A DNA stretch of 37,157 nucleotides, from the NCBI GenBank assembly GCA_020080175.1, contig JAGHQL010000222.1:1-37157 (forward strand). Direction: 5' to 3'. Position 1 is the first letter of the stretch; every line of letters starts with the position of its first letter. The notes below the pieces were generated by a model. It searched no databases. It was given only the letters and a program-made list of their open reading frames with translations, and was not told the origin of the DNA. Origin of the DNA: Glutinoglossum americanum. Taxonomy: Eukaryota; Ascomycota; Geoglossomycetes; Geoglossales; Geoglossaceae. Below are positions 28,185 to 37,157 of the stretch, piece by piece. The position numbers and the translations under genes were made by a program.

Positions 28185-29778
28185 CTATACCCTATGCAAG
28201 TATCCATACTCGACTGGGCCATCAACGGATGCCCAAGACCAAGTTGGGGCACGGTATTCCGACTGTCGCGTGTGTCGAAGGTGGTTTAGTTTAAGTCCGC
28301 TTCGATTTACATTCCATGAAAGTCCAGATACGAAGGAATTTCTCCACAAGCCATCGAGATAGACATCCGGAGATCCTGCAGACTTTTTGAAGGCCTCGGA
28401 AAAAATATTAGCTACCCCTGATATGGCTGACAACTTATCTGTTTGACGAGATAGGAGGCGATCCGAGTACAGTTGAACTATACTTCGCCATTCGCTTTGG
28501 AGCCGCAATGGCTGATCCGCAGTTCCGGAGTATCGAAGAAGTCCGGACTCACACGGAGCGCCTGACTTATACATACTGTCACCAAGGCCTAGAACCTCCT
28601 TCGCCCCTGGAATTTCATTTTGGCCCCAGTGCTGACCGCATTCGCAGACCGCATCGCTGAGGCATTGCCACGACATCTCATTACCATCAAAGAAAAGCAA
28701 ACGGTTGGGAAGAAGTTTTTCTTGAAAACACCAACCTCTCTTATCCAAAGCGCATGTAGCTGTGCGGTCTGGCCTCCCTGTTCTTATGAACATCGCATTT
28801 CCTGGATGACCAAATTCAGTGGGAGCGTCTGTGCAGAATCGCTTTTGCCAACTAGGACTCCCATAGCGTTGTTCTCCGAGGAATCCGGATTTGCATGATG
28901 CAGGCTCCTTGGCAGCGATGGTAAAGCGTGAATTTAAATAAATCTGGAACATCTGAGAGGACTCCTGGAGCCAGTCTCCCTTGTCGTCTTGAATGATACA
29001 AAGGGAGTCAACCCACAAATTAGGTATGCCTAGTTTCGTACAGACCACCACAGCATCGAGTACGGTATGCGGTAAAGAGGAGAGGTTAATAGCCTCATAA
29101 TGGGATTTCACATTCTCCTTTAAGGTCGTCAATACACCATCGACATCGCTTCCCCAGCAGTGGCTGAGACAAACGTAGGGTGCAGGCTCGCTAGGCTCGA
29201 AGAGAAATGTTGTGCTCGATTGTTCTGATGATTCTACATTGAGAAGCCGGTGAGGCATAAAGGTTGAATCGCCTGTCTTGCATCGTTCGTGGTGATTAAG
29301 GCAATGTGAGAGAGCCACTCCGCAGCTCGGTCAAAGGCCGCCTCTGACCGCGAGTCCCTGATGATGTCCAAACTTTGGTCAATGTACCTTCGATCGAATG
29401 ATCGGTCATGCAGATACCCAGCTATGGATCCATGGTTAAATATATAATACCGCTAAAATGCGGAAACCTTTAGATACCTGGTGCAGGAACAAATAGCTGG
29501 AATGAGCCAACGGTCTCCTCGCCCTCTATCAGATTAAATCTAAGGGGAACATCTCCCCAGTCTATTCTCAAGATGCCCGGGGCACCTCCTTTCCCACTAA
29601 TCCACCCAGGCTTGAAATTGTCTATTGCACGAAGTAGCAACGTGCATGGCGAACATCCTTTATCGCCGGAGGCCTGAAGGTCGGATAGGCGGCATGTATA
29701 TTGATAGCCGGGGTGGGCTGATCCATCAAAGCCACGTTCGCACCATACATCATGCAGGCATATTTTCGTACGGGACAT
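28185..29778 (-). CDS. HET-domain (heterokaryon incompatibility) protein, probably disrupted
   Basis: Two exons on the minus strand (29778-29478 and 29421-28185) around a 56-bp GT-AG intron. The start is MSRTKICLHDVWC; the N-terminal part has the paired-cysteine region typical of HET proteins (DKGCSPCTLLLRAI). The HET core (PF06985) is clear: YVCLSHCWG, LPHTVLDAVVVCTKLGIPNLWVDSLCIIQDD, then RGWCFQEKLLPNRLLFF and PTWSWASVDG. HET domains trigger programmed cell death after fusion of incompatible hyphae. Two oddities follow. The reading frame of the second exon's first 35 codons (GYLHDRSFDRRYIDQSL...) does not continue into the HET core; the shift falls at the CT-dinucleotide run 29308-29314. 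The protein also ends about a dozen residues after WSWASVDG, where relatives usually continue. It is most likely a degenerate or allelic null copy. Confidence 0.8.
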
Positions 29779-30597
29779 TGGATCGTGGGCTCGAAATGTG
29801 GTTAGAGCGTCAATTGAACAGTGCTCAAGCAAGCGATACCAACGGAGAGACAATGTTCTTGATTAATTTAGCTTGGCCTGTATCTGGGGTAACGTAACCG
29901 ACGGTGAGTTTGCCGGACCCCGCGAGTTTGCCGCTCTGCGAAACACCCCCGAGACCCCACCACAAACACAACCCCAAAACCAATTCTAGAGCTATAGTCT
30001 TAAAATCATGCATAGATGTTTTGTAGTATATAGATTGCTTAAAAATAGAATTTGACAGACAATGGACAATAATTGCATGTACAGCATGCAAATTCATGAG
30101 ATAGCTCTAATTTTCCTTTCTTGCCCTAGATCTTATTACCATACTAGTATTTAATGTACCTCTACTTGGCTCAGCTACAAGAACCTTCCTTAGCCTCTGA
30201 ATATATAGTTCTGATGTCTAGGTAACTTCAGAATCAGAAGTATCAGAAGATATAAGCATTATTCTAAGACTAATATTTTCTAATTAAAGTTAGAATGCTT
30301 AAGACTTATTATATGATAAACTAACCTTTTGAGTTGAATACTTAAACTTCAAATCTAACTCCTGGAGCTGTAAATAATATTGTAACTTCCTTAACTACTC
30401 TTTTACTCTTACTTCTTTTCCTTGTTCTCTTTTTTTTTTTTTTTTTTTCTTAATAGTTATCTTAGTAAGCTCTTTCTATTTTGTATCATACTCTTTAAAA
30501 ACTTTATTATCATCTTGAATTATTAATTTAGCATATTCTTAATACTTTTTAATTATTCTAACCCTACTCTTATAATAGTTTACTTTTATATTAAAAT
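29779..30597. other. AT-rich decayed sequence, possible old transposon relic
   Basis: From about 29990 base composition drops sharply in GC and TA dinucleotides dominate, the mark of repeat-induced point mutation. T19 lies at 30430-30448. On the minus strand some stretches (SDTSDSE-like, ENKEKK-like) recall tail regions of pogo/Fot-type transposases, but no open frame survives and the assignment is weak. It abuts LTR copy C on its right. Confidence 0.4.
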
Positions 30598-31223: not shown

Positions 31224-32363
31224 TGTTATGGTAGCTACCAGGTAAAGTCCCAGCGGGTTACTAAACAAGCTGAAAAGGAAAGCTAGTCCTGAGAAAGGCT
31301 AGTAGAGCATAGGGGGAATTATCTTATATGTAATACACTAAGTCAGTAACATACGAATGAGGTCTACAAGGCCCCACCAATAACGTCATAAAGGAGCTCT
31401 ACATGGAAGTACAGCTAGTAGCGAAGGAACTGTACAAGCATCATAAAAACTCTACATAGAAGTACGGCTAATAGCGAAGGAACCATACAAGTATTATAGG
31501 AACTCTACATAGGAGTATGGTCAGTAGTAGAAGATATGGCTGGTGGTGAGAGAACTACATAGGCATTATAAGAACTTTCTAATAAAAGCACGGCTGAAGG
31601 CGAGGGGTCCATATGCGTCCATAGAGGAAACTGGACAGGTCCTTACCTGTGGGCTTGTAAGAACTTTCGATGCTAAGGTGACACAAAGGCACTCCGACGT
31701 CGAAAGATCTAGGGGGTTCGATAACAGTGTGATATCACACCTCGCAGCGATGACGATGGCTGGCCGACTGGTCTACATCTAGGTAATGTCTAGATGTACG
31801 AGAACTAATGGATGGACTTGATGGTCGATGGTTCAGGGCAACTTGACGTCAGCCCGATTTAGAATGTAGAGTAGATGGAATAAACTTGATTCTAGTAAGC
31901 AGGAGATGTAGAAGAACTGATCGCTGACCTCCAGCGGGAGGCCAGCGAGCTACTTATATACATAACAGGCATTCAACAATAGACTAGACGTTATGAAGTA
32001 ATAAGGATATATGCTTGCGGAATCCATATAGCCATATAGGCGAGTTGTCATTTGCGTAACCTGAGCTAGTTACCCAGCCGCGGAGACCTAAATGGCCTCA
32101 CCAGGTAACTAACTGCAGGTTATAATAGGGCTCCTCAGAACTATTAGTATATATAGAAAGTCAAGAAGGGTCTTGAAGGGAACCTCATCGATCAATACCA
32201 TAATCACTTTAGATAGACTACTAAAAACTATTAAGCCTACTCTCTCGTCATACTATGCAGCCAGCCTCCCTTACTCCATCGTGACTAGTCCCTTAAAGCT
32301 AGCTTAGCTTGATGCTCATAGTATTCAAACTTTATAGCCCAGCTTATATAAGTAACTGTCACA
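31224..32363 (+). repeat. LTR copy A (solo or end LTR), moderately RIP-decayed
   Basis: About 1140 bp, opening TGTTATGGTAGC and closing TAACTGTCACA, so the TG...CA form of an LTR is kept. It is the reverse complement of copy B over most of its length; differences are dominated by transitions. It contains a tandem array of about 53-bp units (31394-31600) and a segment near 32125-32215 absent from B. A TATA-like CAGCTTATATAAG lies near its end. Confidence 0.8.
31394..31600 (+). repeat. Tandem array of about 53-bp units inside LTR A
   Basis: Units start at 31394, 31447 and 31501, with a more diverged unit near 31572. The core is ACTCTACATAGRAGTAYGGC followed by TAGCGAAGGAAC. Copy B carries about two units, so the array length varies between LTR copies. 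Confidence 0.75.
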
Positions 32364-32441: not shown

Positions 32442-33309
32442 TATGACGGCTGCTTATATAAGCTGGGCCATGAAGGTTGGGTGCCGCGGGCGTCGAGTCC
32501 AAGCTAGCCCTAGAGGGCTGGTCACGACGGAGCAAGGGGGGCTGACCGTGTGGCACGACAGGAGGGTAGGCTTAATGGTCTATCATGACCCGCAGTCGGT
32601 TACCCGGCGAGGCCATTTAGGCCTCCGCGGCCGGGTAACTAGCTCGGGTTACGCAAATGGCGACTCGCCTATATAGCTATATGGATTCCGCAAGCGTACA
32701 TCTTTATTGCTTTATGACGTCTGGTTCATTGTTGAATGCCCGTCGTGTATATAAGCAGCTCGCTGGCCTCCCGCTAGAGGTCAGCGATCAGTTCTTCTAC
32801 ATCTCCTGCTCATTAGAATCAAGTCTATTCCGTCTACTCTACATTCTAAACTGGGCCGACGTCAAGTCGCCCTAAACCATCAACCATCAAGTCCATCCAT
32901 TAGTCCTCGTACATCTAGGCCTTACCTAGACGCAGACCAGTCGGCCAACCATTGTCATCGCTGCAGGGTGTGACGTCACACTGTTATTGAACCCCCTAGA
33001 CCCCTCGACGCCGAAGTGCCTTCGTGTCGCCTTGGCATCAAGAGTTCTTACACTTTCGCCACCAGCCGTGCTCCTATGTGGAGTTCCTACGATGCCATGC
33101 GGTTCCTTCGCCGCCGGCCGTACTCTCATATGAAGTTCCTATGATGACATCATTGGTGAGGCCTTGCGGGCCCCCCTCGTATGTCATTGGCTTAGTGTAT
33201 TACATATAGGGTAGACCCCCCTATGCTCTGCCAGCTTTCCTCAGGGCTAGCTCTCCTTCTCAGCTTGTTTGGTGGCCCACCGGGCCCTTACTCGGTGGCC
33301 ACCGTAATA
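32442..33309 (-). repeat. LTR copy B, 3' LTR of the chromovirus
   Basis: About 868 bp on the minus strand, inverted relative to copy A and tail-to-tail with it. It is the least AT-shifted of the three copies. A polypurine tract lies directly upstream in the minus-strand sense and a Ty3/gypsy pol lies beyond it in the same orientation, which fits a 3' LTR. The TATA-like motif near its end is shared with A. Confidence 0.75.
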
Positions 33310-33313
33310 TTAG

Positions 33314-33324
33314 CTCCCCCTTTC
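33314..33324 (-). promoter_or_regulatory. Polypurine tract upstream of LTR B
   Basis: On the minus strand the sequence reads GAAAGGGGGAG, a purine run a few bases before the LTR B edge. This is the position where second-strand DNA synthesis of LTR elements is primed. The assignment rests on position and composition. Confidence 0.6.
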
Positions 33325-33425
33325 AGGGCCGAGGTCCCTTGAGGCCCGGAGTTCCTTACTGATTCTTTTTCATGTTCTTCTTCCTGTGTATTGGTGCCTT
33401 CCTTTACAGGCCTTGTTTCTGTTTG

Positions 33426-33452
33426 GTCAACGTTGTCAACGTTGTCAACATT
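33426..33452. repeat. 9-bp tandem repeat, three copies
   Basis: GTCAACGTT, GTCAACGTT and GTCAACATT in direct succession inside the element, between the polypurine tract and the opposite-strand open segments. It is a minor simple repeat. Confidence 0.9.
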
Positions 33453-33571
33453 GCCTATTGTTATTGTTTTTCCCTTTAGGTTAGCCTGGTGACCACTCAC
33501 TCAGCTACCCATTTTTATTAAGTGCTGAATCTTGCGTTTTTACCCTCTTCATCCTCACCACCATTGCCATT

Positions 33572-34939
33572 ATGTCTGGTGTGCCGCCCTCCTCTCCTCC
33601 CACCCACGGGGTTCGAACTCCCGGGGTTTTAATTGGTCTTCCTTCGCTGTCATTGCTCAGCCTTCCTCCTCCCCCTCCTACGACTCCTGCCACCCGGTCC
33701 GATGCCTCGGTGGCCCCCACACCAGGGGTCCCTTCCGTGACCCCGGTTCCGTCAACCGTGGGCCACTGAGGCTTTACGGCCATCAACCTTCTGTCCCCTT
33801 CCTCTCCTGGGGCCCTGGCATCTCCCTTGGGGAGGCGGACACGCAAGGAGTGGTGCGCGTACCAGACTGATCCTCAGACTGGTACCGTGCCCACGGCCTC
33901 CATCCGCCCCTACCCCCCATTCTTGGAGACGACCTTCCCAGAAGAGGGAGAACCCGCTGATGGCACAGGCCACGCACCCCCCTCCCACGTGTCTGGCGGT
34001 TCGACCCACCCAGCACCTCTCGTCGTCGCCCTCGGTCTCCCCCCCAGCACCGCCAAGGCCTTCCGCAGAGCCAACGGTATTCTTTTGAAGGCCGTTGGTC
34101 TTGTGGGGACTGACCGCTACCCTCGGTACTCTCGTCTGGGCGAAGCAGCCTGCTGGGCGGACCCAGCCTGTGGGATGGGTGGTGCGTACTTTGCTTGTGC
34201 CCAGCATAAGCAGAAGTGTAGTTTGGTAAGTGCTCCTTAATCCCTTTCATGACTCCTTACTGACTATTCTTTAGCCTCGTTCTGCTGCGGCTGTTCTGGG
34301 CCTTCCTCCCCTGGTTCCTCGGTTTGTTCTTTCCCCGGGCCCCTCCTCTCCCGGTCCTCTCTGCTAACCCCCCCCTTCGGCTATTTGTGTTCCCTCCTGT
34401 CCGGTTACTCGCGGGGGGTTAAAACATAAAGAGGGGTCGGTGGGCCTGAGGTTGGAACATCCTACTGCCAAGCGGGCTCGGGAGAAGGAGGAGGTAAGTT
34501 AATAGCCTTTTTCCCCTTATCTTACTTGTTGCTAACGTTCCTCAATGTGCGGTTCCGAGGAGGCCACCCTCCATTCTGAGGGTGGCTTCTGACTCCTCCC
34601 CCGGCCACCACTCCTCTTCCCCCCCAACCACTACTTGGTCCTCGCCCCTTTGGTCCTCTCGCTCGGTTGTGCCCCGTCGTCCTTCCCCCCCCTCCCCCTG
34701 CCAGGACCCGCTCTCCCATCCCTCCCCCCCCTCCCGCTATTGTTCCAGAGGGCTCTCCTTGTTCGGTCGCCCTTGGGGCCTGCGCTGCTGTACGGAATAT
34801 CCGTACGGCCCTAAGCGCGGTCCAAGGGGACCAGTTCCTGCTCTTCGAGCAGGGGGCGCACTTCGAGAGGTGCCTCGAACTTCTCGAAGAGCAGGTAGAG
34901 GGTCTCTGGCGTCTTCTGGGGGAGAGCCCGGAGTCTTAG
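33572..34939 (+). other. Opposite-strand (antisense) accessory open segments inside the chromovirus
   Basis: Three plus-strand open segments (33572-33769, 33827-34240, about 34582-34939) lie between the 3' end of pol and the 3' LTR, reading against the element. The first is Pro/Ser/Thr-rich. The second contains KAFRRANGILLKAVGLVG and a Cys/His cluster, ACWADPACGMGGAYFACAQH. The third ends in an amphipathic helix, HFERCLELLEEQVEGLWRLL. GTAAGT sites at about 34226 and 34493 and a CTTTAG near 34273 look like intron borders. Composition is protein-like rather than shadow-like. As part of the element it is treated as a fossil; it appears interrupted once or twice. No family is recognised. Antisense ORFs at this position are known in some plant Ty3/gypsy elements. 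Confidence 0.55.
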
Positions 34940-35136
34940 CATGGCTGGTAGGCCGTTTTCCTTGGGGGTCTTGGGAAGGAGATGGGTTCGGTGAAGTGGA
35001 GTGGTTTCTTCTTTTCTTATGTATACTAGTTTTAATATACAACTTTTTGCTTCCTCTTTCATGCCTTCTCTTCTCGTGACATGCCCTCTTCGTAGCCTTC
35101 TTCCGTGACATGTCTTTTTCGTAGCCCCTTCCCCTT

Positions 35137-37157
35137 TTATTCTGTCGCCGCAGGGCCTGACTTCCTTAGGTAGGCCTTATGGAAGTCCTTGACGGCTTCC
35201 GCCGCGTTTACCACGTCTTCCGCCGGTTGCCAGGAAGCCTCGATCCTTAGGAAGCCTTCCCATTTGACTAGATATTGTAACTTCCTTCTCTTTCCCCATC
35301 CCATTGGCCTCAACTGGCTATCCAATATTTCTTCTACTTCCCATTCTTCTTCCCTGTCTACTTCCACCGGCCGAGGTTCCATGGGCCTTTCCCTTTCCGA
35401 TTCCTTGTTGGTATACGGCTCCAGGAGGGAGACGTGAAATACCGGATGGTTCCTTATTGTTGGTGGGAGCTCCAATCGCCTTGTGTTCCTTCCGACTTCC
35501 CCTTTAATTTTGAAGGGCCCGAGCTGTTTGTCGTCCAATTTATCGGAAGGCCTTCTTGTAGTAATGTGTCGTTGTAGGAGCTATACCCTTTTCCCAGGTT
35601 TGAAGGCCGGGGTCGGCCTGCGTGTCTTATCGTAATACTTCACCTATCGCTCCTGAGCTTTTGCTAACGTGTACCGGAGTTCTTCCTGGATGGCCTTTAT
35701 CTTTTCGGCCCATTCCCTTGCCGCTGGCACGTTTCCTCTTAGGTTCCTTGCTGCCGGCCCTTGGGCCAGGGTCCATATAGGGTGGTAACCTTGGTTGGCG
35801 AAGAAGGGTGATACCCCTATACTGGACTGCCTAGCGTTATTCAAATGGAACTCTCCAAGAGGTAGCCAGGCGACCCAGTCGTCTTGTTGGTAGTTACAAT
35901 AAATTCGTATATACTGCTCTATTGTCTGATTCATTCGTTCCGTCTGGCCATCAGTCTGGGGGTGAAAGGCCGTTGATAGTTTAACCTGGGCCCCTAGCTG
36001 TGCGTAGAAAGCCTTCATAAATTGAGATGAGAAGGGGGAGCCTCAGTCTGATATAATGGTCTTAAGAGCTCCATGCTTCGAGAAGATATACTGGACGTAG
36101 AGGTGCGCGAGCTGTTCCAAATTGATGGTTTCATTGCAGGGTACTAGATGGGTCATCTTCGTCAGGCGGTCCACTACGACTAGTAAGGTGTCATAAGGGG
36201 GGTTCTCTGACTGAGCTGGGTCCTTGGACTCAGGTAGTTTGACAATGAAGTCTATCGTGACTGATTCCCAAGGCCTATCCGGGATGTCTAGGGGCTGCAG
36301 CTGGCCAAAGGGCCGGTGCTGAGGTGCCTTAGCCCGAGCGCATTCGTATGTGGCCACATACTGATCTACGTAGGTCCTGGCCTTCGGAAGGTAGTAATTC
36401 CTTCCAATTAGTTCTAGTGTTTTGTCCCTTCCTAGGTGACCGGCTGTAGGGGAGTCGTAGTGCTGCCACATGAGAGCCAGCCGGATGTCCTTGTCGTCTG
36501 GTATGTAGATAATGTCTTTAAATAGTAGCAGTCCCTCTATACTAACCCTGAACAGGCCGGTCCCCTCCTGGGCTTTCCGGAGCCCTTCCTGGCATGCCTT
36601 GTCCTTAGCATATACTTTCTTAATGGCTTCGGCCAGCTTTTCGTGGGTTCTGGTAATGAGGACCGCCGCTACCCATTGGCCGGCCCAAATCAAGGGGGGG
36701 TCTGGCTGGCGGGGTTCTTCCCCGATGGGGATATAGTTGGACCTTCGTGACAACAAGTCGGCTTTCCTATTCACGGTTCCCTTCCTATAGATTATAGCAA
36801 AGTTAAATTCTGCTAGTTCCTCGGCCCAGCAAGCTTGCCGTTTGTTGAGGACTTTCATAGTTGTAAAGTAGGATAGGTTCTTATGGTCCGTATAGATCCT
36901 GGTTTATTGACTGACCCCGGAGAGGTATACCCTCCATTGCTTGAGACACTCCATAATAGCGAGCATCTCCTTATTGTAGATCTCATACCGTTGCTCGGTC
37001 TCCGTGAACTTTCGACTATAGAAGGCGACCGGCCTTAGTACTCCGTCTGGCCCCTTCTGAGAGAGGCAGCTTCCTAGGGCCCAGTCCGTAGCGTCTACTT
37101 CCATGATTGCTTCCGTAGATGGGTCGAACTGTATAAGCAAGTCGGCACTCATGAAGG
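35137..37157 (-). pseudogene. Chromovirus pol remnant: RNase H, integrase, chromodomain
   Basis: On the minus strand, RNase H motifs are seen at 36904-37152 (MEVDATDWALGSCLSQ; PVAFYSRKFTETEQRYEIYN). At 36043-36858 there is the end of RNase H (AIIYRKGTVNRKADLLSRR), the integrase zinc-binding region (TAGHLGRDKTLELIGRNYYLP) and the first part of the catalytic core (PWESVTIDFIVKLP). At 35644-36018 the core continues (STAFHPQTDGQTERMNQTIEQY). At 35137-35538 the C-terminal chromodomain is clear (EVEEILDSQLR; LQYLVKWEGF; ASWQPAEDV). The segments lie in several frames; the pol is broken in about three places within the window. Confidence 0.88.

Follow-up and report, generated by a model that had tools for sequence, protein, structure and literature searches.

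The window, a stretch of 37,157 nucleotides from Glutinoglossum americanum, is contig C138 of a 25.8-Mb draft genome in 317 contigs; the C-numbers used here are contigs of that genome. Profile matches place the 3' part of a pol gene (RNase H tail, integrase, SH3 and chromodomain) on the minus strand at 35137-37157, with the integrase zinc domain and the RNase H tail within 36046-36900, and with SH3_Tf2-1 (3e-14) and Chromo (9e-11) within 35137-35580. With an integrase followed by a chromodomain, the host element is a chromovirus; the contig stops within pol and so lacks the 5' part of the element. The 3' LTR of this minus-strand element, about 253 bp at 33055-33307, was delimited by the edges of matching repeats: the matches at C53:4650-4902 and at 31226-31478, the latter an inverted copy, share the limits 496-748 in the query.

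A repeat of about 470 bp (32583-33053, plus strand) abuts the element's own LTR and lies outside the antisense gene described below. It is taken as the LTR of another chromovirus family, that of C4, because it flanks the C4 chromovirus pol on both sides and on the same strand. The repeat recurs at 81-96% identity over most of its length at 42 or more other places, one of them at 31656-32128 in the window; the count is a lower bound, as 40 of 189 candidates were scored and shorter or less similar matches are excluded. The 470-bp LTR occurs twice in the window, inverted (32583-33053 and 31656-32128), beside the inverted copies of the 253-bp LTR (33055-33307 and 31226-31478). Two further observations concern other parts of the window. 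Near the element, a HET-domain protein is encoded at 28185-29330 on the minus strand (Pfam HET, E 1e-25), which together with the chromovirus pol marks the genome as fungal. A repeat-like ORF, SYLxNLHAVHAIxVxCLSNSIFKQSIYYKTS, is common to the window (29825-30106, minus strand) and to the unlinked L042 (7315-7779).

The region between pol and the 3' LTR

An earlier note on this DNA had proposed an antisense accessory gene between pol and the 3' LTR, with plus-strand coding segments, a Cys/His cluster, an amphipathic C-terminal helix and intron-like GT/AG borders. We find there, at 33572-34939 on the plus strand, a three-exon gene that is antisense and convergent to pol. It is preceded by a leader region at 33308-33571 (plus strand), placed from the sequence and pyrimidine-rich by eye, whose complement would form the polypurine tract beside the LTR. 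The C255 fragment discussed below is 81% identical over 33268-33351. The proposed start, about 260 bp from the LTR, agrees with the 264 bp that we measure to the ATG, although the edge in question is the near (inner) one and not, as had been written, the outer.

From the ATG at 33572 the frame is open up to 34240 apart from a single TGA at 33767-33769. Exon 1 (33572-34225) is Pro/Ser-rich and ends in the Cys/His cluster; it was drawn from the reading frames, the donor and the C284 copy, and 33638-33808 can be aligned in C255. The cluster, at 34151-34219, is seen in the translation and holds the same place in other families. Its final Cys lies two codons upstream of the intron, and it is incomplete in comparison with the six-Cys motif of those families. 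Intron 1 (34226-34274) is of phase 0 and reads GTAAGT...ACTGAC...TTTAG, with donor and acceptor also present in C284. Exon 2 (34275-34493), drawn from the frames, ends in the basic KRAREKEE and contains one in-frame TAA. Intron 2 (34494-34545) reads GTAAGT...GCTAAC..., and its acceptor position is AA in the window, TAG in C284 and CAG in C255. The donors at 34226 and 34494, the branch-like ACTGAC and GCTAAC and the acceptor of intron 1 thus bear out the proposed borders, but the acceptor of intron 2 in the window does not. All exon junctions of the model are phase 0.

Exon 3 (34546-34939, with the stop TAG at 34937-34939) is predicted to encode C-terminal helices. The best helical moment over 18 residues of this C-terminal segment is 0.62, above the 0.55 that marks the 95% point of 500 shuffles, as expected of the amphipathic helix that had been proposed, and a single-sequence structure model, of modest confidence, of an 80-residue piece of exon 3 has helices at residues 21-41 and 51-74 (mean pLDDT 70, pTM 0.38). 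The exon also contains a frame change in a C-run near 34687. The C255 fragment changes frame in that region too, and there the change separates the two aligned blocks; C284 has one base fewer and reads through; slippage, a hidden or extra intron, or a programmed frameshift may account for it. The window copy is a pseudogene, with the TGA in exon 1, the TAA in exon 2, the lost acceptor of intron 2, the frame change and RIP-type decay.

Does the length of the open frames argue for a gene? The longest run in the region is 193 amino acids on the plus strand and 164 on the minus, where shuffles give a mean of 160 and a 95% point of 241. Moreover, 47% of 1000 first-order shuffles contain a run of 156 amino acids, the length of the Cys-bearing ORF, and the minus-strand ORFs of the region are about equal in length to those of the plus strand. 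ORF length, being within the chance range of the shuffles, was discarded as gene evidence.

Copies, related families and selection

Two other copies of the window gene are found. C284:29550-32519 is collinear with the window into pol, at 80-81% identity. Intron 1 retains its donor and acceptor in this copy, intron 2 has a TAG acceptor, and exon 1 is interrupted by several stops; at some cluster positions one of the two copies has Cys and the other Tyr. An insertion of about 260-266 bp lies within exon 1 of this copy, at about C284:30268-30533. Over 33280-35750 the window and C284 differ by 446 transitions and 28 transversions, and 364 of the 446 transitions have changed C to T or G to A on the C284 side, the signature of RIP. 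Because RIP dominates the substitutions the pair is unusable for measuring selection, and its dN/dS was discarded, 446 of the 474 substitutions being transitions.

The third copy, the C255 fragment (about 80100-80885, minus strand), is diverged, with 28-46% mismatches to the window, and its differences include many transversions (61 of 145). What survives in it is the LTR edge, intron 2 and portions of exons 1 and 3; the Cys part of exon 1 is missing. Its intron 2 has GTAAGC, the branch-like TACTAAT and CAG, so that this intron can be aligned in all three copies. As a test of the plus-strand reading, the same substitutions were placed at random in 2000 simulations per block and the plus-frame BLOSUM sum was compared. 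One of 2000 simulations (0.05%) reached the observed sum in exon 3a, and one did so in exon 3b; the share was 5% for exon 1 and 13% for the LTR edge, a non-coding control. The fragment thus keeps the plus-strand reading in exon 3.

What of other elements in this genome? Eight related pol loci were examined with their surroundings (C285, C103, C4, C14, C9, C70, C217 and C102; C160, C16, C1 and C283 are not in this set). Genes of the same plan lie antisense after pol in three further chromovirus families, C4, C14 and C103, and exon 1 of each ends in a complete six-Cys cluster followed, two codons past the last Cys, by a phase-0 intron; in C103 a later open segment of 108 amino acids was also seen. 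C70, a stop-bearing relative of C4, likewise has the gene antisense after pol. Both pol and LTR were located for the window, C4 and C70, and pol only for C14. Compared over the chromodomain part of pol, these families share 38-46% identity with the window, and C4 shares 50% with C14. C285 is the closest other family to the window in the integrase part (51%), yet the six-Cys motif was not found in its pol-locus stretch, nor in those of C217 and C102; the C9 contig ends about 400 bp past pol and is uninformative on this point.

When 15 sequences, the window and 14 loci, were scanned with a regular expression for six Cys, the motif turned up at four distinct places (C255:78241, C103, C4 and C14), and at each a donor stands exactly 6 nt past the last Cys. 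Five further loci added C263, whose donor again lies 6 nt away, and C301, which has GTAGT at that place, a sequence outside the donor pattern. All six distinct complete motifs therefore have GT exactly 6 nt past the last Cys, as recognized by the donor pattern in five of them and by eye in C301. The window and C284 have a donor at the same distance from an incomplete cluster. No complete motif was found by the expression in C160 or C17; the Cys exon of C160 has five stops and pol is matched 2.9 kb from it on the opposite strand, and in C17 several of the Cys are lost.

In all, we count at least 12 places on 11 contigs (C138, C284, C255 with two, C4, C70, C160, C263, C14, C17, C301 and C103), a lower bound from which weak exon 3 matches at C20 (E 0.21) and C165 (E 0.41) are excluded. 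Six of the 12, at C138, C284, C4, C70, C14 and C103, are clearly antisense to an adjacent pol. The gene is thus present in many copies and several families, and not as one transduced copy. With the window exons themselves as queries, genome searches at a limit of E 0.001 returned only C138, C284 and C255. A relation to the other families has one direct support in sequence, a 16-residue match of the window's C-terminal segment to C103 (HFERCLELLEEQVEGL / HLERCMRLLQCEVRNL; E 0.001 in a single comparison), and so the homology of the window gene rests on plan more than on sequence: position, orientation, intron phase, the place of the intron beside the last Cys, and the C-terminal helices. Common descent of the window gene and the genes of the other families is probable, and we put it no higher. 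When two window exons, C14 exon 1 and two pol pieces were searched against viral contigs, no relative was confirmed.

The C4 and C14 families provide pairs in which selection can be measured. Mismatches at first, second and third codon positions number 20/11/44 in exon 1 (5/2/22 in the Cys part) and 12/7/18 in exon 2 for C4 versus C255b, 14/15/25 and 23/18/42 in the two exons of C14 versus C263, and 15/14/19, 15/13/25 and 14/6/24 in exons 1, 3a and 3b of the window versus C255. The seven exon blocks pooled give 113/84/197 (chi-square 52.5, p 4e-12, assuming independent mismatches). By counting, dN/dS is 0.28 in both exon 1 and exon 2 of C14/C263, 0.15 in the last 64 codons of exon 1 of C4/C255b, and 0.19 in exon 3b and 0.23 in exon 3a of window/C255, 3a being near saturation. 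C14 and C263 diverge by 0.30 and 0.28 in their two exons, by 0.42 in intron 1 and by 0.31 in intron 2. For C4/C255b the divergence is 0.26 in exon 1 and 0.34 in intron 1. Some of the evidence points the other way: in C4/C255b the DNA from the LTR to the ATG is, at 0.19, more alike than exon 1, and a one-base gap interrupts exon 1 of C255b. The substitution patterns show purifying selection on the protein.

The earlier note had suggested setting the plus frames against the minus frames. The C4- and C14-family pairs and window exon 3 have low values in the plus frame, and the window/C255 value of 0.73 in exon 1 indicates weak constraint. In two control pairs the other frames give dN/dS of 0.93-3.33, except for the minus frame with the same third positions, which gives 0.33 and 0.30. 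Since this minus frame scores nearly as well, the strand is settled by the introns and by the stops, and not by dN/dS. It has stops in eight of 12 exon pieces, against none of 12 for the predicted frame (the pieces were picked as open); it is stop-free in the two exons of C14, in C263 exon 1 and in window exon 3b.

Some copies lie apart from any recognizable pol. Within the loci searched, no pol was found at E 1e-3 at C255 (both places), C263, C17 or C301, and at looser E the best match is one of 30 residues at the C301 locus (E 0.004). At C301:70073-70702 there is an open Cys-cluster copy (two exons examined) with no pol at E 1e-3 in C301:67000-73500, and C263:259263-259814 is an open relative of the C14 antisense gene, with 68% DNA identity over 760 nt. 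The stretches covered are 6.5 kb at C301 and 3.2 kb at C263. Open in both of the exons examined, C263 and C301 are candidate pol-less genes, and C301 is a candidate for a domesticated or an ancestral host gene.

The Cys cluster and the product

The core of the cluster is CX2C...CX2CX6C, and may be compared with the binuclear cluster of fungal Zn2Cys6 proteins, with its six Cys and the consensus CX2CX6CX5-16CX2CX6-8C. Only C103, at CX2CX6CX10CX2CX6C, fits that consensus; C4, C14, C255b, C263 and C301 share CX2CX11CX8CX2CX6C, with a longer first loop, and the window cluster is incomplete. Pfam Zn_clus gave no match to seven Cys-bearing pieces (window at E up to 5; C4, C14, C103 and C255b up to 10; C263 and C301 up to 1), a null on which the HMMER filters bear, as they discard most weak matches. 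Because the Pfam zinc-cluster models fail to match, we do not class the cluster as Zn2Cys6. Below threshold, the C255b piece matches a Gag zinc-finger model (E 0.044) and C14 exon 1 a zinc-ribbon (E 0.16). A PDB profile search returned only E 0.23 and 1.3, and a PHROGs search only E 0.12 and 0.27. The C4 and C14 proteins end in acidic tails.

What, then, is the gene? We consider it very probable that the window holds the decayed copy of a real three-exon chromovirus accessory gene beside the 3' LTR, antisense and convergent to pol, with a product that may be a regulator. Our best guess for that product is an element-encoded nuclear Cys-cluster protein acting on the element's own LTR, with zinc binding, nuclear entry and DNA binding as presumed properties. 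Transcription would start from the 3' LTR side; the protein would fold as a zinc cluster, enter the nucleus and pair through its helices; and it would regulate the element's integration or its own LTR, by analogy with antisense regulators of the HTLV-1 HBZ type. The wider proposition, that fungal chromoviruses commonly encode an antisense, spliced zinc-cluster regulator of their own LTR, as a counterpart in retrotransposons to the antisense regulators of retroviruses, and that C301 and C263 left such elements as host genes, is doubtful at present.

Several other explanations can be weighed against an antisense regulator. That the frames are chance openings in the pyrimidine-rich 3' region of one element is very improbable: ORF lengths within those of shuffles, and minus ORFs about as long, are what chance would give, but the conserved introns, the frame-specific conservation and the same-plan antisense genes elsewhere contradict it, and these same observations uphold the accessory gene first proposed. 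The antisense RNA might itself be the functional product, a silencing trigger or shield with the reading frames as by-products, as PMC7264820 discusses for plant elements. The gene is convergent with pol, and read-through would therefore yield double-stranded RNA. Nevertheless the dN/dS of 0.15-0.28 and the third-position excess, seen in window exon 3 and in pairs drawn from two further families, make this reading improbable, and a protein under purifying selection speaks against RNA as the only role, as in the silencing decoy once suggested.

It is more conceivable, though still unlikely, that a host gene was captured and spread among elements, with C263 and C301 belonging to the host lineage and not escapees. 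These two lack pol at E 1e-3 in the stretches covered, with only the 30-residue match at C301; the stretches, however, are short, and at half of the 12 places the gene clearly lies opposite a nearby pol. Capture of host sequence in this one copy, as the earlier note allowed, is unlikely, since a gene of this sort is present in four families; an older capture may have taken place. Finally, the product may be a protein that does not bind DNA, nucleocapsid-like or an accessory factor of the integration complex with a zinc knuckle and helices. This is possible, though less likely than not. It would suit a Cys cluster that Pfam zinc-cluster models do not match and the weak Gag zinc-finger and zinc-ribbon matches, but a separate, intron-bearing antisense unit is an odd route to a particle protein, and the basic end of window exon 2 and the acidic tails of C4 and C14 would fit nuclear factors.

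Comparison with known antisense genes

Among the papers listed in a literature search, judged by titles and the starts of abstracts and with subscription journals mostly missing, we found no Cys-cluster antisense gene in a fungal element, and neither the four-family spread of the Cys cluster nor its pol-less copies; this is no proof of novelty. The word 'antisense' is absent from a survey of fungal LTR elements (PMC3248453). Antisense accessory genes of LTR retrotransposons are known yet unexplained. At least four chromovirus families of this genome share a testable protein plan. The Cys cluster, the conserved introns, the purifying selection as measured, the open C4 and C14 copies and the pol-less copies, all in one 26-Mb genome, make a tractable system, which would let one ask what antisense genes do, and whether elements thereby regulate themselves or their host.

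The HBZ protein of HTLV-1 is a bZIP regulator expressed from the 3' LTR side. The fungal gene would resemble it as an antisense gene read from that side with a nuclear regulator as product; it differs in having a Cys cluster and not a bZIP, and HTLV-1 is a retrovirus, so that no homology is claimed. HBZ is described as nuclear and antisense in PMC11963269, where the antisense TRP28 genes of the plant element Retand are also supposed to bind DNA. More generally, the aORF-3R genes of plants (Grande gene23, RIRE2, the Retand TRP28 domain, PvRetro13) have, in the excerpts of PMC7264820 and PMC11963269, the same position and orientation and a supposed nuclear or DNA-binding regulatory role. They differ in their plant hosts and in their protein domains, those excerpts do not mention a Cys cluster, and Retand is not a chromovirus.

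The closest parallel in position is fungal. The Boty-like elements of Botrytis cinerea have an antisense gene, brtn (Zhao et al. 2011, Virology 417:248, as cited in PMC8365987, PMC7264820 and PMC4227169), which, according to PMC8365987, is absent from the latest B05.10 annotation. It runs antisense to gag-pol in the stretch that separates pol from the 3' LTR (PMC7264820); a Boty-like element with brtn and a chromodomain-bearing gag-pol lies in the ABA cluster region (PMC4227169); and a Monilinia transcript matches both a truncated Pol and BRTN (PMC5987419). The statement that such a gene was not known in fungi was therefore wrong: the window gene is not the first fungal antisense accessory gene, and its kind is known from Boty. 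We liken the two by position, each being an extra antisense gene between the pol and the 3' LTR of a fungal Ty3/gypsy element with a chromodomain.
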